DNA of 42,739 nt. It comes from a virus. Location: the IMG/VR virus record IMGVR_UViG_3300021090_000054, positions 1 to 42,739 of that record; one strand, given 5' to 3'. The notes beneath the pieces are model-generated. The model saw nothing but the letters and a program-made list of their open reading frames with translations. It was not told the origin of the DNA and did not search any database. The translations under genes and the position numbers were made by a program. Position 1 is the stretch's first letter. Every line of letters begins with the position of its first letter. Of this stretch, positions 3 to 30,170 are shown piece after piece.

Positions 3-512
3 TCCGGCGGATCAAGCGTTGCAAACGGTACCGGCGGCAATTCGGCCTCAACCGGCGGCAACTCCGGCACCACGCCAACCGGAACTGGCGGCGGCACCGT
101 TGTCACAACCACCGCAACCGGTGGCACGACCACGACAACATGCGTGCCCAAGACATGCGCCGACGTTGCTCCGGCTTGGAATGCCACGAGCACTCTCTCG
201 AAGCCGACCGCGTGCGGAACGACCACCGATGGCTGCGGAGGAATCTTGTCATGCGGCGATTGCCCAAACGGAACAGCAAATACTGGCTGCGGCCAAGCTC
301 CTGGGATTACAACCATTGATTGGAGCGCGGTTGGCCTCGTTCCAGTCCCCAATGTCTGCGGGTCTCGTTGCGTCAAGAATGCTGGCGGTGCTTCCACCAG
401 CGATTGTGCGACTGGAAAAGAGGCCTGGCTGTGCCCATCATCACTACCACCAATTGGGCTGAATGGATGCACCACGCTCTTCACAAACGCATGGTGCTGT
501 AACGCAGCTTAG
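3..512 (+). CDS. Cys-rich secreted-type protein, 5' end cut by window edge
   Basis: The frame is open from the left edge, so the true start lies outside. The visible 169 residues begin with a Gly/Ser/Thr/Asn-rich linker (about residues 1-45) and continue into a domain with many Cys, including TDGCGG, CGDCPNG, NVCGSRC and a final WCCNAA. The pattern TCAD...DGCGG...CGDC is one I associate with secreted proteins of Myxococcota; that is recollection, not a search. Base composition is clearly richer in G+C than the minus-strand genes, which suggests transfer. It converges on the tailspike gene and the two stop codons share bases (TTAG at 509-512). It could be a host-derived adhesin or cell-surface protein carried by the phage, or flanking host sequence if this is a prophage. 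Function unknown. Confidence 0.75.
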   Translation, partial: SGGSSVANGTGGNSASTGGNSGTTPTGTGGGTVVTTTATGGTTTTTCVPKTCADVAPAWNATSTLSKPTACGTTTDGCGGILSCGDCPNGTANTGCGQAPGITTIDWSAVGLVPVPNVCGSRCVKNAGGASTSDCATGKEAWLCPSSLPPIGLNGCTTLFTNAWCCNAA

Positions 513-3500
513 TACATGTAGGTAATCCAAGGCTGCCCGATTCTCATCGTCTGAGTACCAGAGCTAGTTGGGCCTATCCATCTGCCATAAGCTGGCGATC
601 CCGCTCCAACATAACCCTGCTTCATCTTCACTACCATCTCCTTGATGAGTGGCGCTTCTGGCCTGTATCCGTAAATCAACGCATCGGACTGATAGACCAA
701 TGTGACGCTACCAAAGCCAGTGACCCAATCAGGATTGGAGGTGAATGGGTTCTTGGAATCAACCATGTTGCCGTTCAACTCCAGAGAAATCTGCGGGAAG
801 GTAGTAGGTAGAGCTGTTGCTTGGTAAACATCCCAATCACAGCTGAAGTAAAGAGTTACTGATAGGGATAGCAAGTACGCACGATCCGGAAGTACTGAGG
901 ATAGCGGAATGATCAGTCCTACGGTTCCGTCGTTGCTTCCTATACCACCACCATTCCATTCCCAAACCCAACCTTGGTTCTCAGTGAAGGTTGCTTTTTT
1001 GAGACCCTTGTTGATGCTGGTGGCCGGGCTGCCATACAACAACCTCTCATTGTTTTCGCTGCTGGTAATTGGGACTCCTGCACCAGGATCTAGGTGGTAC
1101 AGCGGAATTGCCGATGCTAAGTTGGGCACGGTTCGAACGACCTGGTTGACGTTCCAAGCAGCGAATGTCGCACCCTGACCGGTGATTCCGTTGAAGTTCG
1201 AATCGGACAAATCTCCGTAGCCGTCCACGGTACCAGACCAGAACGCCAAGTTGGCATGGCTGAGAGTGTTCCCGTAGATCGCAGAGTTGGCCGTTGAGAA
1301 AATATACCCACCAATGGCCACTCCATTTTCCTTATTGAGGGTGTTCCCCACGATGGTACTTTGCTCCGACAGCGTAGTACCCTGAATCCAAATGCCATAA
1401 CCTCCGGCGGCAATGTTGTTGATGATGTTGCCGGTAACAGACGCACCAGCACCAGAGATATAGATACCATGCATGTATCCGTTCCACCCATCAATTGTAT
1501 TATTCGAAACAGTTACGTTTGTTGGGTTTAGGCCTTGGCTTTGGACGACCATAGCCCATGGTACAGGATCCGGAATAAACAAATCGCGAAGATAAGTATC
1601 CCATAGCTTTATAGTATTTCCTGTAATGCTTGATCGTAGGTTGTTTGCGCCACCAGACGACTCAATTTTCATAAAGTTGCAATCGTTATCGCGAACTACA
1701 AACGCAACCGATTGCCCAGTAGAACTATTGGTTCCATCAGCAAAGGTGAAGTCTGTAGGATGCATTGTAGCAGCAAACCCCGAGTAAATCAGCTCGGCTT
1801 TATTGTTGTCGATGATGAACCTACCAGCTTCAACGGCTGGAGCCCCACCAATCCAATTTTCCACATTGTATCCAATCAAACCAAAGCGATTGTCTTTGAT
1901 GATAAAATTCTCGATACGTACAAAGTTCATTGCCGAATAGCCAGAGCCCGAAGGGTTTGGGGTGGCGCGACCCGCAATCAAAATTCCTTGCCTCCTATTG
2001 ATTTTGGTATCTGAAACCAAAATATCTAAGAAATATGGTGCGGCACTAGAAACATCCGGCGTGTTTCCATTTACAAATGCGTAACAAAGGCCGGCCGAAT
2101 CGTTGTTGGCGAACGTATCTGTAAACGTGTTGTTCACAAACCTACCATTGGAGAATTGATTATCACTTTCTCCGGTAGCTGAATATATTCCAACAAACGG
2201 TGGCCGTTGATTAGCACCAGATATGAAGCGAGAATTTTCAATTCCAAAATTAGATATTGAGGCCGCTAATACCGATTCTAAATCAACTAGAACTCCACCC
2301 CAATTATATTTGGTGTTGAACACATCATTGGCGTCAAACGATCCTCCGAGTACCGTGCCAGTTAGATAGTAAATATCAGCGTCGTCAATCTTCCAATTTC
2401 CGCTGGTAAACGACAACCCTTGAACATTGTTGATGGTATACGACCCTCCCTTCAAAACCACTGGATTAGTGAAGTGAAGTGTCAACTTACTATCAATGAG
2501 AACATCCCTTACCTTAACCTCTTCGATACCATATTCATTAACCCAGTTCATCAAAGCGTCTGGAGTTACAAAGTTTACGTTGTGAGGGTTGCCATTATCA
2601 ATGTACGAATTATCACCACCAAACAATGTGGCAAAATCAGAGTATGCCCAGGTATAAGACCCAATATCTTGATTGGTAATGTGACGACGAGCATCTGTCA
2701 CTGCCACCGCTCCAGTACTGATTGTGACAGTGGCTTTTGCGATAATTGTTAGATCTTTTCGAGTATCTACAATGTCACGGAACGTAAGGGATTCCACAAA
2801 ATAATCATTTGTCCCCTCAAAGAATTGAGTTCCGCCCTTCAAAACAGCCTTTAGTTGCCCGGTTTCTGTTACGCAGATAAAGTATTCCGCCACATCAGAA
2901 TATGGCACCGTCAAAACCGGAAGGCTTACATCCATCGCGTCCATAGCCACAAAAGCACCATTGACAAGCGCCAGTCCGCCATAGAACTTCAGTGTATACG
3001 TATTCACTCCATATCCAGGAGCATTGGTATTCAGGTCAGTCTTCCACTTGAACCCACGCACAACTCCATTGGTGTGCAAATAACGCTCACCAGCTTGGAT
3101 AAACTTTATAGCGGAATCGGAGAAGTTCTCCTCCGAAATAGTGCCGAAATCTCTTAGGTCTGTTATAGATTTGAAAGCTGTTCCGCTATGGCTTACACCT
3201 GCAACGGCAAAGTACTCGTCATTCTGTTTCGGGGTTGGGAATAGCTCAACAAACATCCCGTTGCCGCCTGATGGAACAGGAGACCCTGGGTAGCCTGCCA
3301 CAAAATCTTCCCGGAATTCAATCTCAATAAAGTTAACGAACGTTTCATCATACACTTTGACTGGATGATTCTTCTTTCCGCGTGTGATTGGACCGCTGTA
3401 AGATCCGTCAAGATTATACATGTAGATATCAAACTCGCCAGTCCCGGCATTGTAGTTATCAATCCACAACCAAACAAAGTATCTGAAATCTGTAACCCCA

Positions 3501-5860
3501 GAACGATATCCCTTCAACTTCGGAGAGACTCTTCGAATTCTCCAATGTGTATCATTACCAGAATCCACGTGAGGTATCCTAGCGCGTTCCACAGCCACAG
3601 ATTGTCCCAGTCCATTTACGAAAATCTCATGATAGTGATGATATGCGGTCGGATCGACTTGCTCAGCCCCGGCCATATTTCCATTATTGAACTGTACGGA
3701 ATCATCCGAGAAATAGATATTAACAGGAGTTTGTGCTGGCAGTGGTACTTGTGCGGGATTTGCCGTACCATGAATGCTATTCAAAACCGTAATATTGGTC
3801 TGCCCAGCACCAGTACAAGAGAACGAAACCGCATCAATGATGAATCGTCCATAATTGTCAATGCTAGTATCGTCAGAACTGACCGGCTGAACAACAATTG
3901 TCTTTCCTGGAGCCAAACCTTCTGTGGCTAAATTAAAAGGAATTGCGTATGTTATGCTATAACCAACTGGGAAAATTGGAGACGGTGCGCCAACTGTGGT
4001 CGCGCTCCAATATCCATCGCCCTCGGTAAATCTAGGCTTCGCCAAAGAGTCCCGGCGATTTCCATTGATGATTACATTTCGATTGCTAACCGGAGTGATA
4101 ACTAGAGTAGAGTAGTTGGCGGCTGCAATTGTAGTTGGATAAGGAACGCTGGCCCCTCCACGACTCATAACAGGTGTTGCGAATCCCGACCTGGTATATC
4201 CAAGACCTAATGCATCATATGGAGGAGTTTCAACAGCATCTCCAACCACATTCCATAGATAAACGCCAGTATCCCAAGATCCAGTTGCATAATTCAACTG
4301 CCCAGCAATGATAGTAAATGCAGCTCCATTATACTCATCAGCCAACATAATCCCAAATTCACCTTTGTGCGCGAATGCAATGAATCTATAATTGTAGCCA
4401 GCGGCTCTAAAGCCAACATTGGTAGCCTCTACAACACTATCAAGGCTATATGCCCCAGGTGTTGCTCCGATATTTCCGGTAACATCAATTGGCGGCAGAT
4501 CATAGAAAGTACTTGGGTTGCCGTTGGGGTATAGGCGAAGATACAGCATGCAGTGATTGGCATCAAGCTTACCAGGATCAAATCCAATACCAACCGCAAC
4601 AGCGCCTCTTGGACTTCCAACAATAACACTATCGTAAGCCAATTGAGTAGGAGCTACGTTTGCACTTGGCGGTGCTCCAGCTGCCGCAAATACGCCCCAG
4701 GTATTTCTGTCGAAATTCGGGCGATCAATTCTGGCATAACCGTCGTATCCATCGTCGGCATTGAAAAGATTGTTGGCATTTACGCGAACGGTCCAATCTG
4801 TTCCAGCATTGAACCGAATTGCCATAATTGGATAAGTCGCTTCAATTCCATTTCCGTAATTGATGCGAAGAATATCCCCAACCCGAACATTGGTAAACTT
4901 AGAATCAAAAACAAAATTCGTATTATCTGGTAAGAACCGAATAACATCATCACCATTACTGATGTTATCATGCGGAGCTAGCTGGCTTGGCTCGGCCAAG
5001 TAAGCATGAATCTTGGTTACTGGAACAACATTGATGGTATATCCATCACGTGGAAGATTTTGAATACGGGCAGTTCGAGGAATACCATTTGAATTCAACG
5101 TGGCCCTATCAACACCAGTAGATAATGTCTCTTGATTATCCACAAATCCCAAGGCCTCTTGTACGTTGGTGAGGTAAGCTGGAAGTTGTGTAAATGTAGA
5201 CGTATCGACAGAGATAGCTGTAGCAGGGTGAATGAGTACGGTGGTGGCATTTTCGTGCCCAACCAATTCGTTATTAATCTCTAGAAGGGCCTCGGCTACC
5301 TGAGTGGCGGAGCGCACATCTCCATTCACATCAAGCAAACCAGTCCAAGAATACGTATCACGAGAATCCACTGGCACTGCGTTCAAATCAATATGGCTTG
5401 CAACGTGTCTAGCTGGAGTGATGTTATCCACCAACAATACGCCGCCAGAAATATGCGTTAGGAAATTAGAATTTTCTTCTGCCAAAAGATCTTGAACAAT
5501 CTCCAGATTGGATTCAAGAGAGACAACGCTTGTGTGCAGAGAGGCGGTACTAAAGCTCAGGGCCAGTTTCACTTCTTTGATACCTGCATTATTGGCAACT
5601 TGATTATCAGTAATCGGAAGGGTAACCAACCCAATTGCTTGTAAGGCCTCGGCTCTTGGGTTACCGTCTGGCCCAATTAGAACTGAAATACGCTCATTAA
5701 CACTGGATTTTGATCCTTGCGGATTTACTCCGAGAGTCTTCTCAATTGCAAAAACAGCTTCTCGCAATTGATTGATAGCAGACGAACCAAGCTCCGAGAG
5801 ATTGTCATCAATTCTATAAATTGTTGAATCATTATCTAGTGAATTTGGATATCTTATCAT
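509..5860 (-). CDS. giant tailspike/tail fibre, beta-helix type (1783 aa)
   Basis: The largest gene here. I start it at ATG 5860 (MIRYPNSLDN), which has AGAGAG upstream and overlaps the stop of the preceding 53-residue ORF as ATGA; an upstream TTG looks unused. The N-terminal and central parts (about 1-1100) are mixed beta-type sequence with several DGY tripeptides, including a tandem DGYDGY. About 1130-1550 holds repeated short strands ending in Asn/Gly turns (GNTIKL, NNTIDGW, GNIINN, GNTLNK, GNTLSH), the hallmark of a right-handed parallel beta-helix as in pectate-lyase-fold tailspikes. The last 230 residues look beta-rich and could bind sugar or trimerise. Known tailspikes of this fold bind or cut surface polysaccharide; the catalytic residues cannot be picked out here. 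It is the last minus-strand gene before the convergent plus-strand gene. Confidence 0.85.
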   Translation of the reverse strand: MIRYPNSLDNDSTIYRIDDNLSELGSSAINQLREAVFAIEKTLGVNPQGSKSSVNERISVLIGPDGNPRAEALQAIGLVTLPITDNQVANNAGIKEVKLALSFSTASLHTSVVSLESNLEIVQDLLAEENSNFLTHISGGVLLVDNITPARHVASHIDLNAVPVDSRDTYSWTGLLDVNGDVRSATQVAEALLEINNELVGHENATTVLIHPATAISVDTSTFTQLPAYLTNVQEALGFVDNQETLSTGVDRATLNSNGIPRTARIQNLPRDGYTINVVPVTKIHAYLAEPSQLAPHDNISNGDDVIRFLPDNTNFVFDSKFTNVRVGDILRINYGNGIEATYPIMAIRFNAGTDWTVRVNANNLFNADDGYDGYARIDRPNFDRNTWGVFAAAGAPPSANVAPTQLAYDSVIVGSPRGAVAVGIGFDPGKLDANHCMLYLRLYPNGNPSTFYDLPPIDVTGNIGATPGAYSLDSVVEATNVGFRAAGYNYRFIAFAHKGEFGIMLADEYNGAAFTIIAGQLNYATGSWDTGVYLWNVVGDAVETPPYDALGLGYTRSGFATPVMSRGGASVPYPTTIAAANYSTLVITPVSNRNVIINGNRRDSLAKPRFTEGDGYWSATTVGAPSPIFPVGYSITYAIPFNLATEGLAPGKTIVVQPVSSDDTSIDNYGRFIIDAVSFSCTGAGQTNITVLNSIHGTANPAQVPLPAQTPVNIYFSDDSVQFNNGNMAGAEQVDPTAYHHYHEIFVNGLGQSVAVERARIPHVDSGNDTHWRIRRVSPKLKGYRSGVTDFRYFVWLWIDNYNAGTGEFDIYMYNLDGSYSGPITRGKKNHPVKVYDETFVNFIEIEFREDFVAGYPGSPVPSGGNGMFVELFPTPKQNDEYFAVAGVSHSGTAFKSITDLRDFGTISEENFSDSAIKFIQAGERYLHTNGVVRGFKWKTDLNTNAPGYGVNTYTLKFYGGLALVNGAFVAMDAMDVSLPVLTVPYSDVAEYFICVTETGQLKAVLKGGTQFFEGTNDYFVESLTFRDIVDTRKDLTIIAKATVTISTGAVAVTDARRHITNQDIGSYTWAYSDFATLFGGDNSYIDNGNPHNVNFVTPDALMNWVNEYGIEEVKVRDVLIDSKLTLHFTNPVVLKGGSYTINNVQGLSFTSGNWKIDDADIYYLTGTVLGGSFDANDVFNTKYNWGGVLVDLESVLAASISNFGIENSRFISGANQRPPFVGIYSATGESDNQFSNGRFVNNTFTDTFANNDSAGLCYAFVNGNTPDVSSAAPYFLDILVSDTKINRRQGILIAGRATPNPSGSGYSAMNFVRIENFIIKDNRFGLIGYNVENWIGGAPAVEAGRFIIDNNKAELIYSGFAATMHPTDFTFADGTNSSTGQSVAFVVRDNDCNFMKIESSGGANNLRSSITGNTIKLWDTYLRDLFIPDPVPWAMVVQSQGLNPTNVTVSNNTIDGWNGYMHGIYISGAGASVTGNIINNIAAGGYGIWIQGTTLSEQSTIVGNTLNKENGVAIGGYIFSTANSAIYGNTLSHANLAFWSGTVDGYGDLSDSNFNGITGQGATFAAWNVNQVVRTVPNLASAIPLYHLDPGAGVPITSSENNERLLYGSPATSINKGLKKATFTENQGWVWEWNGGGIGSNDGTVGLIIPLSSVLPDRAYLLSLSVTLYFSCDWDVYQATALPTTFPQISLELNGNMVDSKNPFTSNPDWVTGFGSVTLVYQSDALIYGYRPEAPLIKEMVVKMKQGYVGAGSPAYGRWIGPTSSGTQTMRIGQPWITYMY

Positions 5861-6018
5861 ACATCTCTCTTGTATAGTTGATCTGATGCCCCACAATAAT
5901 TCTTACCACAAGATGTACGACTGTAAATCGACATATCATGGCCACGCCTGCAATGAGCCCTTGGCCTAGGACCTGGCTTGCAACGTATTTTCTCTATAGA
6001 TGATGGGTAGTTTGTCAT
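5857..6018 (-). CDS. 53-residue Cys/His-rich putative zinc-binding protein
   Basis: A short ORF from ATG 6018 (MTNYPSSIEKIRCK) to TGA 5857. It overlaps the tailspike start by four bases (ATGA), typical of coupled phage genes. GAGAAG lies just upstream of the start. The sequence has Cys and His in a finger-like arrangement: CKPGPRPRAHCRRGHD, then CGKNYC. The CxRGHD element followed by CxxxxC recalls the small zinc ribbon found in some phage HNH-associated and DNA-binding proteins. It may bind zinc or simply allow coupled translation of the giant spike. Function unknown. Confidence 0.6.
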   Translation of the reverse strand: MTNYPSSIEKIRCKPGPRPRAHCRRGHDMSIYSRTSCGKNYCGASDQLYKRDV

Positions 6019-7911: not shown

Positions 7912-9531
7912 TCACAGTATTATTGTGTGCGAATGTCCTAAAACTATAGAAACCTGCCCTAAAACTACGGGATGATTGTGTCCTTGGTCCGAGCTGGTCA
8001 ATTGGTTTATTTGAGATACTGATGTAATTTTCTCGTTGACGATCACGCGATGCATATGGGCAAGTATGCCTCCTGGCCCAGATACCATTCCAATTGAAGT
8101 AAGAATCTCTGATGGAAGAGTGCTTGTATCTCTAATCGAACGAACCTGACAAATTGGGTCTGTCTTGCGCACACGTACCGCCGTAAACTTCTGAGCGCCT
8201 GATTCTTGAAGTAATGTTCTATTCCGATCCACATCAATAATCTCATAGCGCCATTCTTCCGTTCCATCCTGATTGAACCGGATGATGAAATCTCCATCCT
8301 TGATTGTTGGTGTTACCAAAGTCCAGCAATTTGGAATGAATGAATTCTCAATGCCAGAATCCTCACGCTTTAGATCTTCCTTAGTTGGGCCGAACCGAAC
8401 CAAAATCTTACCATCACTTCGACGTGGACTGAAGTATTGGTCATATCCTGTTACCAAAGAAGTTCCATATGTATCTAAACCGCGATAAGTGGTGTTCTCT
8501 CGCGTCCAGCCAGTATGTTGAGATTCCTTTCCGGCCCATTGACGCCTGAACAATACCACCGGCTCCCCAGTAATCTCTAATAGGTATTCCTCTCTCATGT
8601 TCATATGGTCTTGCACGCCCAAACCACGTACAGCTCCATCGCTCTCCGAACCGTCAGCACAACCATACTCGCCACCAAAGTACGTCCCTATGCATTTTCC
8701 AGATAAGTAATCTGGAATGTACGTACGATCCCAGCCCGCCTGGTCGTATGCTGGGAAGCCGGCGTTTGAGGCATCAACAACATTCAGGTTTCCCGTGCCG
8801 GACAAGATATCCTTTCGTTCTCTGAATCCATACCCATCTCTGTGAACTCTAGCGTATTGGTCATCGAACCTGATGGTTGTCATTCCGACAGCCGTATTCT
8901 CATCCTCCCAACCTTTAAAGAGGCGTACAAACGGATCGTCAAACGTATGATATCCATCGTATCCATCAACAGTATGGATTCTGGGTTGATAACCATATAC
9001 TCCACGTTCTGCTACAATCAAATACCCATCAACAACATCAACGTTTGAGTACTTGATCGGTTCAGCGCCAATTAAAACAATTCCTGTTGGAGGGAAAAGC
9101 GAAACATCATCCAGCGGAATAACCATTTCTGTAGCTGAGATGTTGCGTGTAAGAACGGCATCTGGATACATCTTCAATCCAGGCTCGTTTCCATTTGGTA
9201 ACTGATCAAAAAGCAATGTCCCAGGCTCATGACCAGCTCCCTTCACTGCAAAGTAGTAGGTCTTGCCTGGATTAAAGTCCCCATGAAGGTCCATCGATAA
9301 ATAACTAGCGGTGGTACTAGGTTTGACAACAAACTTTACCCCTTCACTGTATACATCGCTTTGTTTTGTGGACCAATACAGATTATAAACCAACTGCCAA
9401 CTGCTGGGCTGAAGGTATTCTTTATGCCATTCAAGGGCAACGGTATAGCCATCTCCACCGCACGCCACGGTACGAACACCGTGGAGAGATAGATCGAATG
9501 TGCGTAGAAATACAGGAGGGTTGCACGCCAT
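7912..9531 (-). CDS. tail/baseplate-type structural protein with His-rich C-terminus (539 aa)
   Basis: The N-terminal 110 residues read like a fibronectin-III-type domain (VALEWHKEY, YNLYWSTKQSDVY, GKTYYFAVKGA). A second beta domain follows, with EPIKYSNVDVVDGYLIVAERG, a pattern seen in phage proteins of the base or neck. The C-terminus carries closely spaced His motifs (AHMHRV, GHNHPV, GHSHTI). Similar HxH groups bind metal in trimeric tail fibres such as T4 gp12, so metal-assisted trimerisation is plausible. Five DGY tripeptides occur, one as a DGYDGY pair. It lies just after the metallopeptidase gene. Precise role not assigned. Confidence 0.75.
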   Translation of the reverse strand: MACNPPVFLRTFDLSLHGVRTVACGGDGYTVALEWHKEYLQPSSWQLVYNLYWSTKQSDVYSEGVKFVVKPSTTASYLSMDLHGDFNPGKTYYFAVKGAGHEPGTLLFDQLPNGNEPGLKMYPDAVLTRNISATEMVIPLDDVSLFPPTGIVLIGAEPIKYSNVDVVDGYLIVAERGVYGYQPRIHTVDGYDGYHTFDDPFVRLFKGWEDENTAVGMTTIRFDDQYARVHRDGYGFRERKDILSGTGNLNVVDASNAGFPAYDQAGWDRTYIPDYLSGKCIGTYFGGEYGCADGSESDGAVRGLGVQDHMNMREEYLLEITGEPVVLFRRQWAGKESQHTGWTRENTTYRGLDTYGTSLVTGYDQYFSPRRSDGKILVRFGPTKEDLKREDSGIENSFIPNCWTLVTPTIKDGDFIIRFNQDGTEEWRYEIIDVDRNRTLLQESGAQKFTAVRVRKTDPICQVRSIRDTSTLPSEILTSIGMVSGPGGILAHMHRVIVNEKITSVSQINQLTSSDQGHNHPVVLGQVSIVLGHSHTIIL

Positions 9532-13373: not shown

Positions 13374-14270
13374 TCAGAATATTTGTCTCGCTCTGAGGTG
13401 TCTAAGCCTGCGCACCTGCGGAGAGACACCGCCTACAAATGAGAGAGTGCCCAATCCTAATGGGCTTGGTTTCATGTTATGCTTAATTAACTTGCACTTG
13501 TCGTACCAGTTATCAAGCTCCTTCTGATATTGGGTATTCAAAAGCTCAGAAACGGTTGGTGGAGTAAACCCAATACCATTATCCTGAACATTAAACTCTC
13601 GTCCTCGTTCGATAAGTGCCTGAGCCCCCAGCGCCAAATACAAAGCCCCTTGTACCAAAATATCATGGAATTGTTCAATAATTGGCGTATCTTCCCAAGT
13701 GAACAGCGTAAAGTGAGGGATTTCGTTGAACATAGTTAATGCTTGGCAAATAAAAGCCACCAGTTCATCCACGGTATAAACGTCACAATCTTTGTACACC
13801 GCGTTTCCATTCTCATCCAATCTGCGCGCCTTTCCACGGCTCTTCAACCTCACTCGCAATGACTTCAGCACGTTATTGATATTGCAGATGGCAATCTGAC
13901 TGAAGTTATAACCAGGATCATCTCCAAGCTTCTTCAGACCATCGGTATTGAGGCCAGGAAGCTGAGAATTGAATGTGGTAAACGTATATTCTCCAATCAT
14001 ATTGAAACCCTGGTAGACGCCTTGCCAAGCATCTCTCCAAGTTCCGACCGGAGGATATAGACCAACACTGTAATTAAATTGATATTCCCCAACACCAATA
14101 TGCATGACACCCATGCTAGTGGGCCCTACAGCAACGCCACCGCTTGGTTGAATCACCGTTACATTTGGGAAACTATCCAGGTCAACCGGAGCACCATCGA
14201 CGGCAAATTTAGCCGCAAGAGCTACGGTATCGTTTGGTTGTATGATATCGGATCGTGGAAGTGTGGCCAT
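13374..14270 (-). CDS. two-domain connector/neck-like protein (298 aa)
   Basis: Start chosen at ATG 14270 (MATLPRSD); upstream in-frame starts would add hydrophobic sequence lacking a ribosome site. The N-terminal 110 residues form a beta domain (DTVALAAKFAVDGAPVDLDS...GVGEYQFNY...GTWRDAWQGV) that is paralogous to the protein at 14706-15425. The C-terminal part repeats the helical domain of 11835-12182 and 16174-16470: NNVLKSLRVRLKS, VYTVDELVAFICQAL, FNEIPHFTLFTWED. Here both modules are fused, which suggests that the separately encoded copies act at the same virion site. Probably head-tail joining or tail completion, by inference. Confidence 0.65.
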   Translation of the reverse strand: MATLPRSDIIQPNDTVALAAKFAVDGAPVDLDSFPNVTVIQPSGGVAVGPTSMGVMHIGVGEYQFNYSVGLYPPVGTWRDAWQGVYQGFNMIGEYTFTTFNSQLPGLNTDGLKKLGDDPGYNFSQIAICNINNVLKSLRVRLKSRGKARRLDENGNAVYKDCDVYTVDELVAFICQALTMFNEIPHFTLFTWEDTPIIEQFHDILVQGALYLALGAQALIERGREFNVQDNGIGFTPPTVSELLNTQYQKELDNWYDKCKLIKHNMKPSPLGLGTLSFVGGVSPQVRRLRHLRARQIF

Positions 14271-14353: not shown

Positions 14354-14713
14354 ATGAAAAACCTAGCATCCAAAGGATGCAAGACGAACTTTGCTCGAAC
14401 ACTATCTATATTGGGGATTTTGTGCCTAAGCTGCTTCCAAGAGCAAGAGGCTAAATCAGTAGATAGCGCATACCAATGCGCACCAGCTTGCAGACACGCG
14501 CAGTCACTCAATTGCAAAGAATCTGAAGATGCAGTTTACCCAATTGATTGTTCAGTGAGCGCAGAGTGCCCAGACGGAATATGCATCAAAGGCAAATGCA
14601 CAGACACATGCGAAACACTATGCCGACAAAACATTCGCAAAGATCAACACCAAGGTTTAGCTTGTTGGTCAAAAATAACATCCTGTGAACAGATAGCAAC
14701 TTGCGCTAAATAG
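14354..14713 (+). CDS. Cys-rich putative lipoprotein on the opposite strand
   Basis: 119 residues, ATG 14354 with AAGAGA upstream. Residues 1-27 look like a lipoprotein signal: basic N-terminus, hydrophobic TLSILGILCLS, then Cys27. The lipobox is imperfect (Cys at -3, Leu -2, Ser -1). The mature part has twelve Cys, including SAECPDGICIKGKC, a CPDGxCxxGxC pattern that I associate with secreted proteins of Myxococcota. It is the only plus-strand gene within the structural operon and its end overlaps the convergent minus-strand gene by eight bases. Position and type fit a moron: a gene expressed apart from the late operon, perhaps altering the host surface or excluding other phages. That role is inference. 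Confidence 0.7.
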   Translation: MKNLASKGCKTNFARTLSILGILCLSCFQEQEAKSVDSAYQCAPACRHAQSLNCKESEDAVYPIDCSVSAECPDGICIKGKCTDTCETLCRQNIRKDQHQGLACWSKITSCEQIATCAK

Positions 14714-15425
14714 GAGTGACCGAAGTTACACCAAATGGCCGTGAGGCATTGATGGCATACGTTTCCCATCTCGATACATTTTGTATATATGAAGATCCGC
14801 TGGCCGTCCAGGTCCAAGCAATTATTGATTCATCATAAGAGCTAGTACTGGAGAACGCAAATTGAGTTGTGGTTTGGGAGCCTGGCACTAGTGTAATTTC
14901 GCCAATAACTCCAATCGAAGTTGCACGACTAAATGTTATTACAGCGCCTTCTGGAATTCCTCCAGATGGAGTAACCAACACATATCCATCTATCAAAGTT
15001 GCATATCCAAGACCCACACTACTTGCTTGTATTACCTCAACATTTTCCTTCCAAGAAACAGATGCGACATACGTTCCAATAGCCGGAACACCAATTGGCA
15101 GCTGTAGACCATGAATATATAAACCAGATCCAATTCTGGTCATTGGTCTTGGGTAATAAGCAGCTGATGAAAGATCTGGGAAGATTACTTGATTCACTAC
15201 TGGAACATAATATCCATCATTGGGACCGGCATAACCATCCGAATAACCATCTGGGTAGTAACCATCTGGCGCATCGGTATAATATCCATCAATTAGATAA
15301 CCATACCCATCGAGCCAATTGCCATCACTACCCAAATCACTAGGGATTCCATCAGCATCTAAAACCTGGACAACCAAGCGGACAGTTTGCCCAGTATTCG
15401 CAAATATGTAATTTACAGATCCCAT
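14706..15425 (-). CDS. neck/tail-type protein with dense DGY insertion (239 aa)
   Basis: The N-terminus (GQTVRLVVQVLDADGIPSDLG) and the segment GSGLYIHGLQLPIGVPAIGTYVASVSWK align by eye with the N-terminal domain of the protein at 13374-14270. Between these halves, where the paralogue has no insert, is a stretch of about 40 residues with six DGY copies. The C-terminal 75 residues (ATLIDGYVLV...IGEITLVPGSQTT...ESIIAWTW) repeat a small beta domain also found in 21914-23668. The gene is convergent with the lipoprotein gene. No ribosome site is obvious before ATG 15425. Probably a virion component of the neck or tail. Confidence 0.7.
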   Translation of the reverse strand: MGSVNYIFANTGQTVRLVVQVLDADGIPSDLGSDGNWLDGYGYLIDGYYTDAPDGYYPDGYSDGYAGPNDGYYVPVVNQVIFPDLSSAAYYPRPMTRIGSGLYIHGLQLPIGVPAIGTYVASVSWKENVEVIQASSVGLGYATLIDGYVLVTPSGGIPEGAVITFSRATSIGVIGEITLVPGSQTTTQFAFSSTSSYDESIIAWTWTASGSSYIQNVSRWETYAINASRPFGVTSVTPI

Positions 15426-19149: not shown

Positions 19150-19255
19150 ACAATCTCCTTCCATGTATGCCCAATCAAAACATTATCTTAGATAAACCAT
19201 CTGGATTGCTCTTGATAAACCTTACAGCATCTACATTGAGCTTGGAATACTTTCA

Positions 19256-21214: not shown

Positions 21215-21901
21215 TTATGTAGCCGTAATTACAATGCCGGCAGCCAAACACGAAGAACTTCCACCAGTAATAGTAGGTGTCGCTAACCAAAACTCTATTA
21301 TCGCTGATCCGGTAGGTGGCGTGAAAATTTGAGGACCAAAATTGTAATCGGTTTCCAAACCAGCAACCACTCCCGATTCGAACAAAATTGTTGTATTTGT
21401 TTTGTCGTACAATCGGATCTGTGCAGTAGATCCTGCAGGAATTTGAACTAACGTATTGAGTCTAAACACAGCCGTTCCGGCTCCCAATACGGTGTAATCC
21501 AAGACCGGAATGGCACCAATTAATGTGTAAGTTGACCCTGCTGGTTGGGTTCCGGAGACTAGCGGAAGATACGTCAGAGCGGGCCCAGAGCTTAGTTTTG
21601 CATCAATATTAGCAAGGTGTTCTCCAATGACATTGTTCGTTGGAGCGGTGTAATTGGTAGGAGAATATACAAGCCCAACATGATAGCCATCAATTGATCT
21701 GGAATCATCAGCCCACTGAACACTATCTTGGCCATCAATTACATGGTAACCATCTGATGCCCCAAAAGTTCCAGCGGGTGCTGCGGAATAGCGGCCATAC
21801 CCATCAACCCACGCTATAAACCCTGGCTTAACAGCAGTTTCGCTAGCTAGGGCTAACAAACTTGGCATGTGCAAACTTTGTCTGAAAAATAATCCTGTCA
21901 T
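21215..21901 (-). CDS. tail/virion protein with DGY motifs (228 aa)
   Basis: ATG 21901 with AAAGGCG upstream. The N-terminal part has three DGY copies (WVDGYGRYS, ASDGYHVID, SIDGYHVGL). The phrase TNYTAPTNNVIGEHLANIDAKLS is a typical fibre trimerisation or joint element. The C-terminal 100 residues are a beta domain rich in Thr and Gly (AVFRLNTLVQIPAGSTAQIRL broken by loops). Probably a fibre or adhesin component. Confidence 0.7.
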   Translation of the reverse strand: MTGLFFRQSLHMPSLLALASETAVKPGFIAWVDGYGRYSAAPAGTFGASDGYHVIDGQDSVQWADDSRSIDGYHVGLVYSPTNYTAPTNNVIGEHLANIDAKLSSGPALTYLPLVSGTQPAGSTYTLIGAIPVLDYTVLGAGTAVFRLNTLVQIPAGSTAQIRLYDKTNTTILFESGVVAGLETDYNFGPQIFTPPTGSAIIEFWLATPTITGGSSSCLAAGIVITAT

Positions 21902-21913
21902 AGCGCCTTTGTT

Positions 21914-23668
21914 TTAGGTAAATAACCCTATGCCTTGTTGATATTGTTGCAATAAATAGTTTTGAGATCTGATAGTGCTTTCAATGCGTATATCGTCCAC
22001 AAACCCCGCATTAGAACCCCAAGGACCATTGAACCCCCAATCTATACTCGCTGGCGTGATTGTTGTAGTAGCGGCCTGTAAACCATTTATATATACAATG
22101 GCCACACCAGTAGTAGCATTGTAAGTTGCCGCAACAAACGTCCAGTTGACCAGAGAGTTAGCTGGTGTACTAACAGCACGTGCGCTGGTTGACCAACTGA
22201 AATTTATTACTCCGCTAGCATCAATAAATATGGCAGCCGAAGGATACGGAGCTGACCAAGTATCTCCTGTATGATAGTTTTTTGCGATAAGAGAGATACC
22301 TCCTCCTCCAGAATATAGGCGCGTCCATGCAGAGAGCGTAATAGAGCTAGATTCTCCAATACTGGTATCGGCAGTCATCATAGATGCAAAATGTACGCTT
22401 GTAACTGCCCTTGCACAGTTGCCAAATATACCTGGCGTACCTGCAATAATCGAGTTGCCAGAGGGAACAGTTAAGTCAAGCGTTCCACCAACCCCTGTAT
22501 TGGCAAAAGGCGCAGCTAACTCATCACACGTCCACAAAATCTGCGTATACCCATCTGTAACTGTTGTTCGGAGCGCACCTGTTCCACCACCTCCCCCGCT
22601 ATATCCATCTAAAGCCGATTTGATAATATTCTCTTCAGCTACCGCTCTGTTCGTCTCTGCGGTTACTAAGGAGATAATAGAGGACGCATAGCCATCTACA
22701 TATACAACGGTTGCATATCCATCAGCAGACCCTCCGCCTCCACCACTATACCCATCCAAAGCTGCTTTGATAATATTCTCTTCAGCTATCGCTCTGTTAG
22801 TTTCTGCAGCCACAGAAGCTATGATTGAAGCTGCATAGCCATCTACATACGTTTGGGTCGTATAGCCGTCTAAGGCCGTCTTGATTTGATTCTCGGCACC
22901 AATTGCCCTATTAGTTTCCGCCTGCAATTCCACTGTGGTAGCGTATCCGTCGAGACTTTGAGGAACTCCATAACCATCTAGTGTCTGTCGTATTAGCGCC
23001 TCAGCAGCTTCGGCCCTGGATATCTCAGATTGTAGCAATCCTCCATCCGCAGCGGTACCAGATGTAGTTCCAATAACCAATGCCCCAGTCACAATACTGT
23101 TGATAGTCCAAGTCATTATCGACTGGTCATATTCACTTGAGCTTACCAAAGAGAATTCATTTGTAGTCTGGGAGCCCAGAGACACATCTCCAATTTGGCC
23201 CAATGGAGTTTTTCGACTCCACATTACTTTAGCATCTACAGGAATTGCTCCAGGTAAACTAACTGCAACATATCCATCCACCAATGTTGCTTCGCCACAG
23301 GTGCCTATGGAATTATAACCATCTAGAGCACTTTTAATTTCTTGTTCAGCCGCCAAGGCTCGATTCGTTTCCCCTTGCAAATCAACGAGAGTGGCATATC
23401 CATCCAGGCTTTGTGGCACTCCATATCCGTCCAATGCAGTCAAGATGGTTTGTTCAACCGCTACGGCGCGATTTGTTTCAGCTTGCACCTCTGCGGTGGT
23501 AGCATAACCATCCAGATCTGGTGGTGCCCCATAACCATCTAGAGCAATTAGAATATCCTGCATTCCCGAAGTAAGCCCATTTAGCTTATTCTTATCAGCA
23601 GAGGACATAACACCATTAGCTGCTAAATTTGCTAAAAGACTTGGATCTTTGTAATTAATTGTACCCAT
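21914..23668 (-). CDS. coiled-coil tail fibre with LamG domain; paralogue of 25909-27105
   Basis: Start set at ATG 23668 (MGTINYKDPSLLA), which matches the start of the paralogue (MSTIDYRDPSLLA). The next 370 residues are repeated units of the form DGYATxxxxQAETNRAxAxExxIxxALDGY, short coiled-coil rods separated by DGY joints, 15 DGY in all. A small beta domain (TLVDGYVAVSLPGAIP...IGDVSLGSQTT) interrupts them and also ends 14706-15425. The last 200 residues form a LamG jelly roll ending FVDDIRIESTIRS. The repeats share near-identical DNA with the paralogue, so exchange between the two is likely. Probably a receptor-binding fibre. Confidence 0.8.
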   Translation of the reverse strand: MGTINYKDPSLLANLAANGVMSSADKNKLNGLTSGMQDILIALDGYGAPPDLDGYATTAEVQAETNRAVAVEQTILTALDGYGVPQSLDGYATLVDLQGETNRALAAEQEIKSALDGYNSIGTCGEATLVDGYVAVSLPGAIPVDAKVMWSRKTPLGQIGDVSLGSQTTNEFSLVSSSEYDQSIMTWTINSIVTGALVIGTTSGTAADGGLLQSEISRAEAAEALIRQTLDGYGVPQSLDGYATTVELQAETNRAIGAENQIKTALDGYTTQTYVDGYAASIIASVAAETNRAIAEENIIKAALDGYSGGGGGSADGYATVVYVDGYASSIISLVTAETNRAVAEENIIKSALDGYSGGGGGTGALRTTVTDGYTQILWTCDELAAPFANTGVGGTLDLTVPSGNSIIAGTPGIFGNCARAVTSVHFASMMTADTSIGESSSITLSAWTRLYSGGGGISLIAKNYHTGDTWSAPYPSAAIFIDASGVINFSWSTSARAVSTPANSLVNWTFVAATYNATTGVAIVYINGLQAATTTITPASIDWGFNGPWGSNAGFVDDIRIESTIRSQNYLLQQYQQGIGLFT

Positions 23669-23721
23669 ATATTGCCCTGTAATCACATGCTGCAATATGC
23701 AGCCTAATATGCGCAATTTAC

Positions 23722-25899
23722 TTACGGATAAGCCACTGCCAAAACAGTTCCAGTTGGTTGCGCAGTGGTAACTGTAAACCAAGTTGCGCCGCCATCTTCT
23801 GTGATATATGCCACAGAGGCTCCGGTATCAGCTAATATAATTCTACCAGTGTACGGATCATAAGTCGCATCTCGAACATTCACCGCACCACCTCCGATAG
23901 TGCCACCATTCGACCAGGTTACTCCGCCATCTATAGAATACATCGTTTGAGAATCGGTAGTGGCAATGGCAATAAGCCTCTGATGAATAGGGTCCCAAAC
24001 CAACGCATACCAATTCCTACTTGTAATTGTTCCACCATTAACCCAATTATATCCATCTGTAGTATACTGGGATTGAGTACCACCAAGACTTGGCAAAACC
24101 ACAACACGTGCATGCACCGGGTCATATGCTATTGCATTCATAGGAACAATAGGATTGGCCATTGGATAGAAGTTCACACCACCATCATCGGTATACAGTG
24201 CATCTGCTGTGCTGCCGGCAACCCACATACATCTATTATGCCCAGGATCAAAGCAACCGGCAAACCACCCTGCGGCCACAATAGTAGATGCACTCTGCGT
24301 CCAAGTAACCCCGCCATTGGAGGTCATATATGCTCCAGAAGTTTGCGATTGGGCTATAGCGATTGTGGTTTGATGATATCCATCATACACCAACTTAAAC
24401 CAAGCTTGATATGAGGCATTAGTAACCCCTCCAGCCGTCCATTTAGCACCACCATCAATGGAATAATAAGTAGACCCGGATAATGTTGCGCCATTCGAGA
24501 TGGTGATATACCTAGAGTGCGCAGCATCCCAAATCATACCATACCAACCACCACTTGGTAATGTGCCACCAGTTGCCCAATTAAATCTACCATCTTGAGA
24601 ATAACAAGATGTTGTAGAGTTTCTAGTAGCTGTAACTATACGCCCTGAATACGGGCCAACAAACAAGCCTTGCGGGCCTTGTGGTCCTTGTGCCCCTTGC
24701 GTAACCACTCCGGGAACACCCTGGTCTCCTTTGATAGTAGTCGGGCTTACCACCGACCCAACCGCCCCAGTGTAATACCACAAAATTCCGCGGACTGTAG
24801 TGTCTTGAGTGGTTGGGTAAGCTCCATCCCATCCGTTTCTTAGTTCAAAAACAAATGTAGAACTAAACACCAAAGGGTTGGCATAATGCCACTTATACCA
24901 AGCCACATGACCACCACTTGGATTAAACACCACACCCGCATCTCTGGTCTTGCCTGGAGTTCCAGAGCTGAAATAAAACCCATTTTGAGCATAGTCTTCA
25001 ATTGAATCATATTTATATTGGTCAGTTTGAACCTGCGCCCCACCGACATTTATCCAATTATACCCATCTTCACCATACCCATCGATTACGGCGTTCATCC
25101 ATCCTTCAAGATAATGAAAATCAGTTTGCCCAGTTAGATCATAATATCCACCAACAAACACGCCACCGGTTGGAGAGTTGACAGTCAGTAAATTTTGAGT
25201 AGCATAAGGAGCCACCACATAATTCATAGTAGAGGACCAGAGCTTTCCATATAGCCCCCAATTCATACCAGTTCCCAACTTATATTCCAAATATCCACCT
25301 AAAAGATGGTTTCCGACGTTGACAAGATCTACAAACTGAACCTTCACATGACTGCTGAATGGAGCAACGAAGTCCAAATAGAAACTAAGGCCATTGTTGC
25401 TCGAAACTCCACCGCCAGCCCTATCGCTGTAACACGCAGCAGCACGAAAACAACCAATATCTTCTACATATCCATCTATAGATGGAGTCAGCTCACCATC
25501 AACAAACACCTGAAACTTCATGGTTGGCGTAGCGCCGGAATACCCTAGCATCGCTAGTGTGCAAAAAATCTTAGATAAATACCCAGCACCATCGATATCA
25601 AGCACAGTATATCCACCACCAGCTGGCAATTCAGGGCCCCTCAATGTCGAGATGTGTGAAGTAAATACGCCTGGATATTGAGGTGAATCTAGTCCAGGTA
25701 CACGAGCCGCTAAATCAGCATAAGCTTTCGGCACCACGTCATCGATACCAACTGGGGTTGCTGTTCTCATAACTGCAAAACCAGTATCGGTAGAGTTGCG
25801 CACCTCAACCACCCCAGCATTGTTCTTTAATTGAGGCCCGCCAATTCCCAACTGAAACAGATTGTCAACAATACCACTTATTCTTTGCAGTAAACCCAT
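23722..25899 (-). CDS. multidomain adhesin: DUF2961-like, collagen-like and Asp-box propeller (725 aa)
   Basis: ATG 25899 with GAGGAAT upstream. Domains in order: a phage-fibre N-terminus (about 1-60, with VEVRNSTDTGFAVMRTATP); a beta domain (about 65-290) with FQVFVDGELTPSI, the VDGExTPSI phrase of DUF2961-type jelly rolls; a short collagen-like GxY stretch (about 393-412, GAQGPQGPQG); and a seven-unit Asp-box array (about 420-725) with YSIDGGAKW, YSIDGGVTW and ITEDGGATW. Seven such units suggest a seven-bladed sialidase-like propeller. One unit reads TTDGYNW instead of DGGxTW. No sialidase catalytic Arg triad can be identified by eye. Likely the distal receptor-binding protein. Confidence 0.82.
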   Translation of the reverse strand: MGLLQRISGIVDNLFQLGIGGPQLKNNAGVVEVRNSTDTGFAVMRTATPVGIDDVVPKAYADLAARVPGLDSPQYPGVFTSHISTLRGPELPAGGGYTVLDIDGAGYLSKIFCTLAMLGYSGATPTMKFQVFVDGELTPSIDGYVEDIGCFRAAACYSDRAGGGVSSNNGLSFYLDFVAPFSSHVKVQFVDLVNVGNHLLGGYLEYKLGTGMNWGLYGKLWSSTMNYVVAPYATQNLLTVNSPTGGVFVGGYYDLTGQTDFHYLEGWMNAVIDGYGEDGYNWINVGGAQVQTDQYKYDSIEDYAQNGFYFSSGTPGKTRDAGVVFNPSGGHVAWYKWHYANPLVFSSTFVFELRNGWDGAYPTTQDTTVRGILWYYTGAVGSVVSPTTIKGDQGVPGVVTQGAQGPQGPQGLFVGPYSGRIVTATRNSTTSCYSQDGRFNWATGGTLPSGGWYGMIWDAAHSRYITISNGATLSGSTYYSIDGGAKWTAGGVTNASYQAWFKLVYDGYHQTTIAIAQSQTSGAYMTSNGGVTWTQSASTIVAAGWFAGCFDPGHNRCMWVAGSTADALYTDDGGVNFYPMANPIVPMNAIAYDPVHARVVVLPSLGGTQSQYTTDGYNWVNGGTITSRNWYALVWDPIHQRLIAIATTDSQTMYSIDGGVTWSNGGTIGGGAVNVRDATYDPYTGRIILADTGASVAYITEDGGATWFTVTTAQPTGTVLAVAYP

Positions 25900-25908
25900 A
25901 ATTCCTCA

Positions 25909-27105
25909 TTACGCATTTGCGACTACATAATTAACACTACAATATCCCGCGCCTGCACCAGGGCTTCCTCCAACCGTCACTTGTACCTGCCCCAACACGC
26001 CCCAGAGCGTGTCTTGTGGCGCTTGATACAATCCGGCGATAGTTGGGTCATTATCAGTGGTCGCTTGCACTAGAGCCGCCGATCCAGAACGACCCACACT
26101 AATAGTAGTTCCAGGAGAATATGGTGTATCAATTCTCACCACACAATCTTGAACTACGGCAGTGGCTGGTATGCTTGAAGCTGAATTTTGAGTAGCTCCA
26201 GTTCCAATCGCAAACCTTATAGTCTGAACGACCCCAGAAGACGACCCGCCATAACCATCCAAAGCCGATTTGATAATATTCTCTTCAGCTACCGCTCTAT
26301 TAGTCTCTGCGGTCACAGAGGCTTGAATGGCCGCCGCATAACCATCTACATACGCTTTGGTGGCATATCCATCAGTAGAACCACCGCCGCCACTATACCC
26401 ATCTAAAGCGATCTTGATGATATTCTCTTCAGCAATCGCCCTATTTGCCTCATTCTGCACTAATGTTTCAACGTCTTCGGCGGTTAGCGTTGCAACTCCT
26501 TCAAATACCGAAATACCAATTCCGCCCGTTGCTTGTATTATGGAAAATGGCTCTCCTCCATACGTCATTACATAACCATCTAGGGCGACCTTGATGATAT
26601 TTTCTTCAGCTATAGCTCTATTTGTCTCAACCGAGATAAGCGCTTTGATTGAGGCTGCATATCCATCTACATAAGCCTTGGTAGCATATCCATCTGTTGC
26701 GGAACTACCACTATAGCCATCCAGCGCCTGTCTGATTTGATACTCTGCGGCCATTGCTCTATTAGCCTCTGCCGTTACAGATGCTTTGATAGAAGCCGCA
26801 TAGCCATCCACATAGGTCTTTGTGGTGTATCCATCAAGTGCGGCTTTGATTTGGTTATCGGCAATTGTGGAGCGGCTTACTTCGGCAGATAGTGAGGTTT
26901 TAGAGGCATAGCCGTCAATAAGCACCCTGATTTGGGCCTCTGCCGCTGTGGCCCGATTTGTTTCAGATTGTAACGCAGCTGTGGAGGCATAGCCGTCTAT
27001 TATTGGGCCAATTCCATTTAGCTTATTCTTATCATCAGAGGACATCAACCCATTGGAGGAGATGGTGGCTAAAAGGCTAGGATCTCTATAGTCAATTGTA
27101 CTCAT
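25909..27105 (-). CDS. coiled-coil tail fibre with twelve DGY joints (398 aa)
   Basis: ATG 27105 with GGGTAAC upstream. Residues 1-35 (MSTIDYRDPSLLA...DDKNKLNGI) are the shared fibre anchor. Residues about 36-300 are units of ATKAYVDGYAASIKASVT, then AExNRAxAEExIIKxALDGY. In ordinary phage fibres the same joint reads ATKAYVDxA without GY. The C-terminal 100 residues (AIGTGATQNSASSIPA...TTISVGRSGSAAL...VTVGGSPGAGAGYCSV) are a fibre-tip domain I recall in other phages. Probably a second receptor-binding fibre, alternative to or assembled with the paralogue at 21914-23668. Confidence 0.8.
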   Translation of the reverse strand: MSTIDYRDPSLLATISSNGLMSSDDKNKLNGIGPIIDGYASTAALQSETNRATAAEAQIRVLIDGYASKTSLSAEVSRSTIADNQIKAALDGYTTKTYVDGYAASIKASVTAEANRAMAAEYQIRQALDGYSGSSATDGYATKAYVDGYAASIKALISVETNRAIAEENIIKVALDGYVMTYGGEPFSIIQATGGIGISVFEGVATLTAEDVETLVQNEANRAIAEENIIKIALDGYSGGGGSTDGYATKAYVDGYAAAIQASVTAETNRAVAEENIIKSALDGYGGSSSGVVQTIRFAIGTGATQNSASSIPATAVVQDCVVRIDTPYSPGTTISVGRSGSAALVQATTDNDPTIAGLYQAPQDTLWGVLGQVQVTVGGSPGAGAGYCSVNYVVANA

Positions 27106-28336: not shown

Positions 28337-29338
28337 TTATCCGACTAGTGTTGACTTACGCGATGCAGCGACTGCTCTCGGGTTTACAATACCAATACCA
28401 ATTTCCTCTGACACCACCCAGCCGAGTTTTAATTGTTTTGGCTCGTCTGCTGGAATGACTTCGATGTCCTGACGGATTGGAAGCACACCAACGAACTCTG
28501 GGTCCGAAGCTCCGTAGACAGTTCCTGGTGGAACGATCTTCGAAACCATGATGTCCGCGCCCCAAATGTGAGCGTACAGACCGGTCTGGAGAATTTCACG
28601 CTGCGTAACCGGATCAATCTCACCAGCCGAGGTTCCGGAAGCTGCCCAGTTAAGGATGTCCGTAAACTCGTTGATGTTCATGAAGTACTTCGTGGTCACA
28701 AGGTCCCAACGATCAATCTGAACCTTGATTTCAACCAAGTCGCGCTTCATCAGGCCGCTGTCAGTGATGTCCTGAAGCGTGTTCTCAACCGAGGATGCTG
28801 CATCGATGGCGGCGAAGATGTTGGCATCTTCCTGAGCCATAAGCTCTTGACGAGCCTTCTGCACTGCACGGTCGATAACGTTGAATCGACGACGACGAAC
28901 CTCTGAAATACGAACGGTTGGGTTCGAGTAAAGCTCGAACGTAGGAACCGTAATACGGTCGCCGAACACACGAGACTCTCCACCGGTACCATTGCTGGAA
29001 ATAACGGTTGCGGCGACATCAATGTCACGCTCGTACTTCGGATCCACGCCCTGTGGCAGAGGATCTACGACCAACAGACGACGGGCGATTCCCTGGTAGT
29101 CCAAGTTACGACGAATTGGATTCGCCATGGCCTGGGCAAGAGCAAGCTTTCCTTCCTGCGTCATAATTGCGCGGGCGATGAGTTCGTCGCGCTTCTCGTC
29201 ATTCAGACTTGGCTGACCCGAAAGGGCCATATTCGATGGCTGTCCTTCTTCGAGGATAGCTGCATACTTCACTAGAGTATTCAATGCGTCCTTGACGGAC
29301 GAGGCATTCATACCACCACGGGTATCAAATAAAGACAT
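28337..29338 (-). CDS. major capsid protein (HK97-fold)
   Basis: 333 residues; ATG 29338 with AGGAGA upstream, the best ribosome site of the region. The central part (RRNLDYQGIARRLLVVDPLP, then ERDIDVAATVIS and FGDRITVPTFELYSNPTVRISEVRRRRFNVIDRAVQKARQEL in pieces) matches the pattern of HK97-type capsid proteins of large phages: TVPTFExxSNPxVxxxEVxxRRFxxIxRxxxKAxxxL. The C-terminal half has the VSKIVPPGTVYG and GVLPIRQDIEVIPAD strands of the A-domain. No long N-terminal scaffold domain is visible, so scaffolding is probably separate. It is followed by a structured 3' region and a terminator, consistent with high expression. Confidence 0.88.
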   Translation of the reverse strand: MSLFDTRGGMNASSVKDALNTLVKYAAILEEGQPSNMALSGQPSLNDEKRDELIARAIMTQEGKLALAQAMANPIRRNLDYQGIARRLLVVDPLPQGVDPKYERDIDVAATVISSNGTGGESRVFGDRITVPTFELYSNPTVRISEVRRRRFNVIDRAVQKARQELMAQEDANIFAAIDAASSVENTLQDITDSGLMKRDLVEIKVQIDRWDLVTTKYFMNINEFTDILNWAASGTSAGEIDPVTQREILQTGLYAHIWGADIMVSKIVPPGTVYGASDPEFVGVLPIRQDIEVIPADEPKQLKLGWVVSEEIGIGIVNPRAVAASRKSTLVG

Positions 29339-29439: not shown

Positions 29440-30138
29440 TTACACCATTGGAGGCGCGAAGTAGATCAGTGCGCGAGCCATTCCACCGTTTGCTGGAGCG
29501 CCTGGGCTCGGAGCATAGGCAGCCGTTACCAAGCTAACTGGCGTGGTAACCAGACTTCCACCCTTGTAAGGCTCGAAGTTCAAGAAGCGACCGAGTGTGC
29601 AATATCCATCACCAGCGTCGAAACTGACAGCCTGGTTAGGAGTCAAAAGACCAGCACCCGTGGCAAACAACTTTGCTCCGATCTGCAGAGTGGCGTTCGT
29701 TGGCACAAGACCAGTGGTGGTCGTGGTGTCAACTGCATCCAATGTCACAGCGTACGTTCCTGGCTTGTCCCACAGAGTGAGCTTGCCGGAGCCGAGTGCC
29801 GTGTGTGGGCCTAGTTGAATAGCAGGAGCCTGTCCAGCACCATAAGCTTGCTGTCCAGCGATTCCACCAATAACTGAGCCGAAAAGTGTTCCGTATCCCC
29901 AAATACCATCGTCCACCAACATGAGAGGACGATCGCCAGCTACAAGAGCTGTCGTTGCGACTGGACGGGTTGTCTTTACATAACCGTCAACCTTCACATC
30001 ATAAGCTGCGCTATCGGTATTAACCGTTACGCCCTTAATTGTTGCAACTTCTCCACCCTTTACGGTGAGGTAGATGCCGTCAGCGCCATCAAATTGTCCA
30101 AGCGGATTTACGCCGGGATTTACGAGTTCTAATGCCAT
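29440..30138 (-). CDS. probable capsid decoration protein (232 aa)
   Basis: Start set at ATG 30138 (MALELVNPGVNP) with AGGA upstream; an earlier GTG would add six residues. All beta-type sequence, rich in Gly/Ala/Thr/Val, without enzyme motifs, directly upstream of the capsid gene in the same transcript. It carries two DGY copies (VKVDGYVKT, GDGYCTL). Position, size and composition fit a protein that coats the head or a head-vertex protein. Family not recognised with certainty. Confidence 0.65.
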   Translation of the reverse strand: MALELVNPGVNPLGQFDGADGIYLTVKGGEVATIKGVTVNTDSAAYDVKVDGYVKTTRPVATTALVAGDRPLMLVDDGIWGYGTLFGSVIGGIAGQQAYGAGQAPAIQLGPHTALGSGKLTLWDKPGTYAVTLDAVDTTTTTGLVPTNATLQIGAKLFATGAGLLTPNQAVSFDAGDGYCTLGRFLNFEPYKGGSLVTTPVSLVTAAYAPSPGAPANGGMARALIYFAPPMV

Positions 30139-30152
30139 GTTATTTCCTGTTT

Positions 30153-30170
30153 GCACCACTTCTTTGGTGC
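30153..30170 (-). other. hairpin just upstream of the decoration-protein ribosome site
   Basis: GCACCA and TGGTGC form a 6-bp stem with a 6-base loop, ending about four bases before the AGGA element of the next gene. It could tune translation or stabilise the 5' end. A weaker 5-bp stem lies at 30201-30218. Confidence 0.45.

Follow-up and report, generated by a model that had tools for sequence, protein, structure and literature searches.

A tripeptide word, DGY, in virion proteins of a jumbo-phage clade and its expansion in the loop of an Ig-like domain: a candidate glycosylation sequon

The N-glycosylation sequon N-X-S/T is a short, exact word that lies in surface loops of viral proteins and multiplies under selection. 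The tripeptide DGY described here is likewise short, exact, located in surface loops, multiplied and defined at the protein level, but it consists of different residues, and we know of no enzyme or chemistry for it. Among phages, the nearest described case is that of the mycobacteriophages, in which glycans are reported on capsid and tail-tube proteins at their C-termini (Freeman et al., 2023, as cited in PMC12619734). The likeness is that phage genomes carry glycosyltransferases, with structural proteins decorated in the mycobacteriophages; in contrast to the C-terminal glycans in that account, the proposed DGY site is an exact internal tripeptide, found in many external proteins. The open-access literature searched contained nothing relevant on a DGY motif or on over-represented tripeptides in phage virions, and no known sequon of sequence DGY.

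The 42.7-kb stretch of DNA analysed here (the window) is part of a jumbo-phage genome. Its major head protein (28337..29338, minus strand, as are all features below unless stated; no DGY) is 98% identical to that of G001, a 392-kb metagenomic phage, and shares 53% identity with the head protein of Bacillus phage G (Donellivirus gee), the closest cultured relative by this protein among the phage records searched. The same protein was used to define the phage-G-like clade. Phage G differs in having a small DGY excess (~29 versus 18 expected, 400 kb examined) and in being without a homologue of the GT1-type glycosyltransferase gene found beside a DGY virion gene (see below). Naming a host through a search of bacterial genomes with the head protein was abandoned, the result being a single contig in a Chitinophagales MAG, which is too weak. 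In two genomes the major head protein gene is interrupted by an intervening sequence (G018:C1:187659-192111 and G026:C1:219801-221869), which suggests introns or inteins.

DGY was the most over-represented tripeptide both in the window (56 versus 2.6 expected) and in G001 (91 versus 16.4), with expectations taken from a composition model for each predicted ORF and ORFs called mechanically. The original prediction had noted a local enrichment; the stretch it pointed to is indeed enriched, but DGY is not just a local feature, being a virion-specific word of the whole clade. Among 940 non-redundant proteins encoded at loci that the head protein had retrieved without regard to DGY, a sample centred on virion genes, DGY occurred 490 times versus 43.5 expected (11.3-fold). 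Substitution at the third residue gave 1.3-fold (DGF), 1.4-fold (DGW) and 1.1-fold (DGH); NGY (0.8-fold), EGY (0.7-fold), SGY (1.1-fold) and DAY (0.8-fold) were no more frequent, and TGY, AGY, DSY and DNY each fell within 0.7- to 1.4-fold. All three residues are needed. DGY exceeded expectation in 47 of the 48 head-protein-fetched loci of at least 10 kb (286 versus 34 in total).

The excess is limited to virion genes. In G001, the virion gene block (283-346 kb) contained 69 DGY versus 3.8 expected and a small fibre-like block 8 versus 0.7, while the other 414 predicted proteins contained 14 versus 11.9. Between orthologues of 35-75% identity, DGY was kept identical in 67% of cases versus 37% for other DG tripeptides, and an indel lay no more than eight columns away from 38% of DGY versus 21% of other DG. 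Control phages gave 10 versus 2.7 expected (T4 virion genes), 5 versus 1.9 (Tunturi_5), 0 versus 2.6 (Yoloswag) and 0 versus 1.5 (LR745208); some DGY excess is ordinary, but not at the level or exactness seen in the clade. A region of RaK2 was discarded as a control, being mostly non-structural. Long xxDGY/xxNGY pentapeptide-repeat proteins (L155, L129) were considered and rejected: these GYD-type repeats are different proteins, in contigs where nothing matched the head protein of the clade; low-complexity matches of the GDGYGSG type from pattern scans looked like chance readings of repetitive DNA and were discarded.

The stretch first pointed to belongs to a 239-residue virion-cluster protein (14706..15425) with an N-terminal Ig-like domain. 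The whole protein had no match in annotated phages by tblastn, and its N-terminal domain no family in PHROGs or Pfam. Six of its seven DGY fall inside one 42-residue stretch, GSDGNWLDGYGYLIDGYYTDAPDGYYPDGYSDGYAGPNDGYY (15207..15332), which bears out the dense six-copy insertion predicted at about 15200-15330. Over 100,000 shuffles, the whole protein never yielded more than four copies, and six were never reached on shuffling the stretch itself. TRF reported no tandem array at 15207-15332, and both spacing and synonymous sites vary between the DGY units; on these grounds a DNA tandem repeat or microsatellite was rejected as the identity of the stretch. The seventh DGY lies in an inserted domain (residues 135-207; 14805..15023), which is 51% identical to part of the fibre-like protein 21914-23782 and is missing in the orthologue L285 and in the short orthologues. 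Residues 139-205 of this domain scored 15.8 bits against PF24146 (K1-lyase_C), below the curated cut-off of 27 bits, and we therefore call it only PF24146-like. Adjoining the DGY gene is a counter-oriented gene for a predicted Cys-rich lipoprotein (14354-14713, plus strand), and a homologue in a relative (L289:6561-6920, minus strand) likewise runs counter to the DGY gene; by analogy with T5 Llp, we guess that it may be a superinfection-exclusion lipoprotein.

Structure prediction, the check that had been suggested, places the stretch in a surface loop that links two strands of an Ig-like sandwich predicted with confidence. The orthologue with the shortest loop (L288) was modelled from 17 sequences with a mean pLDDT of 89 as an Ig-like beta-sandwich, in which the DGY loop connects strands 14-20 and 35-40. 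The top PDB matches of this model were Ig domains and its top viral matches phage Ig-like and minor tail proteins, consistent with a phage Ig-like virion domain. In the model of the window protein (seven sequences), which is of low confidence as a whole, residues 31-72 had pLDDT below 50; this is as expected of a flexible loop, in a model that is poor overall. The domain that bears the loop shares the fold of the phage Ig-like virion domains in BFVD, which include minor tail proteins and uncharacterised phage proteins and among which A0A6J5RY45 (31% identity, TM 0.82) is a likely orthologue. What sets the present protein apart from phage Ig-like domains generally is the DGY loop expansion.

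Twenty orthologues from related jumbo phages, frequently encoded directly upstream of a gene of the neighbouring family described below, were collected by searches with growing alignments. Their loops range from 12 to 116 residues and from one to eight DGY, with at least one in all 20, so that the copy-number variation that the original prediction had proposed to look for is present; DGY in the loop is ancestral to the whole family. A tree was built from 88 columns of the domain, with the loop and the inserted domain removed. The window protein and two long-loop sisters form a group (97/97) within a group of five (100/100), the other two members of which, L288 and L289, have 12-residue loops with two DGY. 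Long loops nested among short-loop relatives in a loop-free tree argue for gain and not loss, the direction that had been proposed, and the comparison supports a copy-number expansion in the window starting from about two DGY. Loops also lengthened separately in L291, L292 and L294 (68-70 residues, five or six DGY, with unlike intervening sequence) and in L290 and L299 (22-23 residues, three or four DGY), which makes at least three lengthenings with DGY. Both sisters of the window protein, its closest orthologues (L003:8001-8903 and L005:8001-8582), carry a His/Trp/Cys-rich segment (HHHHHH...HEWHRWW) within the DGY loop; the window copy is without it and, from its position in the tree, has probably lost it. 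The surroundings of the DGY gene (L283:6918-10421; L289:4057-6333) are an insertion hot spot, with a fibre gene after it in G001, and in L289 the Ig-like domain is read through from a fibre-like upstream part of 648 residues.

The neighbouring gene (13374..14270) encodes a homologue with the same N-terminal domain, a short loop of about 12 residues and no DGY. The alignment of the two domains, first made by eye, agrees with hhalign profile-profile comparison of the two families (79%, E 1.6e-5), in which the DGY stretch falls opposite a gap. That the paralogue is devoid of DGY is correct for the window copy but not for its family, whose members usually have one DGY elsewhere; one of them, L114, has a single DGY at the equivalent loop. 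The stretch itself was absent from all five aligned homologues of the neighbour family, in which its presence would have pointed to loss.

Several other genes of the window carry DGY. Two fibre-like proteins contain 15 (21914..23782; 0.17 expected) and 12 copies (25909..27105; 0.13 expected). Five copies each are found in a DUF2961/BNR virion-cluster protein (23722..25899), a large virion-cluster protein (509..5896) and a baseplate-like protein (7912..9531), the last with a DGYDGY pair that is also present in several relatives. A further virion-cluster protein (21215..21901) has three, and a protein beside the major head protein (29440..30159), located where phage G has its annotated gene for capsid decoration, has two. 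An orthologue of the baseplate-like protein (L003:14698-16815) contains a His/Cys-rich insert, CNCSEEHHCDKGHHCHCSERREHHCHC, a candidate metal site.

Phage glycosyltransferases can serve the modification of DNA or of the host surface as well as that of virions. Among ten DGY-rich genomes, PF00534 was above cut-off in all ten and PF00535 in nine, and phage G fell under the cut-off for both. In G001 a GT1-type gene (G001:282270-283388; PF00534 plus PF13439), together with several GT2 genes (one at G001:281577-282254), adjoins a virion gene of about 1000 amino acids (283641-286637; seven DGY); a 2265-residue gene with 16 DGY lies beside GT1/GT2 genes in the same neighbourhood, and sugar-epimerase genes are also near. 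A search of 35 records recovered the ~1000-residue virion gene in 27 and a GT1 homologue in 26 of these; the remaining record is G021, whose virion gene extends as far as the end of its contig. On all 26 contigs with both, the two genes are 25 bp to 10 kb apart (median ~0.9 kb), that is, a phage-encoded glycosyltransferase is linked to virion genes, as virion glycosylation would have it. Neither gene was found in phage G, LR745208 or Tunturi_5, all three outside the clade. Because most of the contigs were picked by DGY pattern and all belong in or near one clade, this is linkage and not proof of function, and shared ancestry confounds the co-occurrence of glycosyltransferase and DGY. The locus lies outside the window fragment. 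2OG-Fe(II) oxygenases were dropped as the modifying enzyme, being present in only one of 11 genomes. A tubulin/FtsZ (TubZ-like) gene lies near the glycosyltransferase locus (L029:6371-7762, equivalent to G001:265071-266462), with homologues in most relatives inspected.

Taken together, the counts and comparisons show DGY to be a selected, exact, virion-limited word at the protein level, clade-wide, repeatedly gained and conserved in indel-prone loops. Chance is excluded as its source, and DNA-level repeats and a generic preference for turns are unlikely. An element acting at the DNA level (slippage, a mobile repeat, a packaging or recombination site) and encoding DGY incidentally would fit the copy number differing among relatives, but all 56 DGY of the window (GAYGGNTAY) are in the sense coding frame only, their codon use is near average, the site holds no tandem array and the word is defined strictly by amino acids, which leaves such an element scarcely credible. 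A protease site or intracellular targeting tag would suit a word so exact and so confined to the virion; single proteins, however, have up to 15-16 copies, and copies also lie within repeated fibre segments, so that a protein cut at every one would not survive, and we regard a processing or sorting signal as quite improbable. Somewhat better placed, yet still unlikely, is that DGY is merely a favoured beta-turn or flexible linker of beta-rich fibre proteins that drifted to one spelling in this lineage. DG often forms a tight turn, turns abound in loops and fibres, and the T4 virion genes are mildly enriched; but NGY, DGF, DGT, DGS and other turn spellings remain at 0.8- to 1.6-fold against 11-fold for DGY, so that the tolerance of equivalent residues that a turn would allow is not seen, and other jumbo phages have little or no excess.

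A selected, exact and virion-limited word is normally read by a modifying enzyme or by a binding partner. Were it bound non-covalently, each copy would dock one partner, either from the host surface (a glycan or a protein) or from the phage (a protein of decoration or assembly), with added copies raising avidity and no modification involved. Exactness, conservation and position in surface loops serve binding equally, multivalent loops suit avidity, and some orthologues pair the DGY loop with the His/Trp-rich segment. An aromatic or turn-based contact, however, would normally accept DGF, DGW or NGY, none of which is enriched, and the one word is used across many unrelated folds; binding is a serious possibility on which we would nevertheless not wager. 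The adjacent glycosyltransferases incline us slightly towards modification. Our best explanation, held tentatively, is that selection for additional DGY copies extended a loop on the surface of this Ig-like protein. DGY, a strict short linear motif that the phage uses throughout its external virion proteins, would act as a recognition site and is a candidate glycosylation sequon. The glycosyltransferase encoded beside the DGY-bearing virion gene would be the enzyme, and tyrosine is our guess for the modified residue; DGY-rich loops may then form patches of dense decoration, shielding the virion or promoting its attachment. We are more doubtful of the broader proposal that the clade uses DGY as a previously undescribed tripeptide sequon for phage-encoded modification, probably Tyr O-glycosylation, of many external virion proteins, with density tuned through loop copies. 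That so exact and virion-limited a word is enriched 11-fold throughout this uncultured clade of jumbo phages suggests that the virion surface bears a recognition code. As a sequon, DGY would be a phage protein-decoration code comparable to N-X-S/T, its enzyme probably encoded beside its substrates; as a binding word, it would mark host attachment in a form that can be counted; in both cases, decorated jumbo phages could be looked for in metagenomes through this sequence.

Two further genes within the virion cluster of the window were named by eye. A cysteine-desulfurase-like (class V aminotransferase) gene at 17112-18188 is found in the same place in L285, L288 and L049, and a patatin-like phospholipase gene at 18166-19164 lies among the virion genes and has a tandem duplicate in L302:3855-5593.
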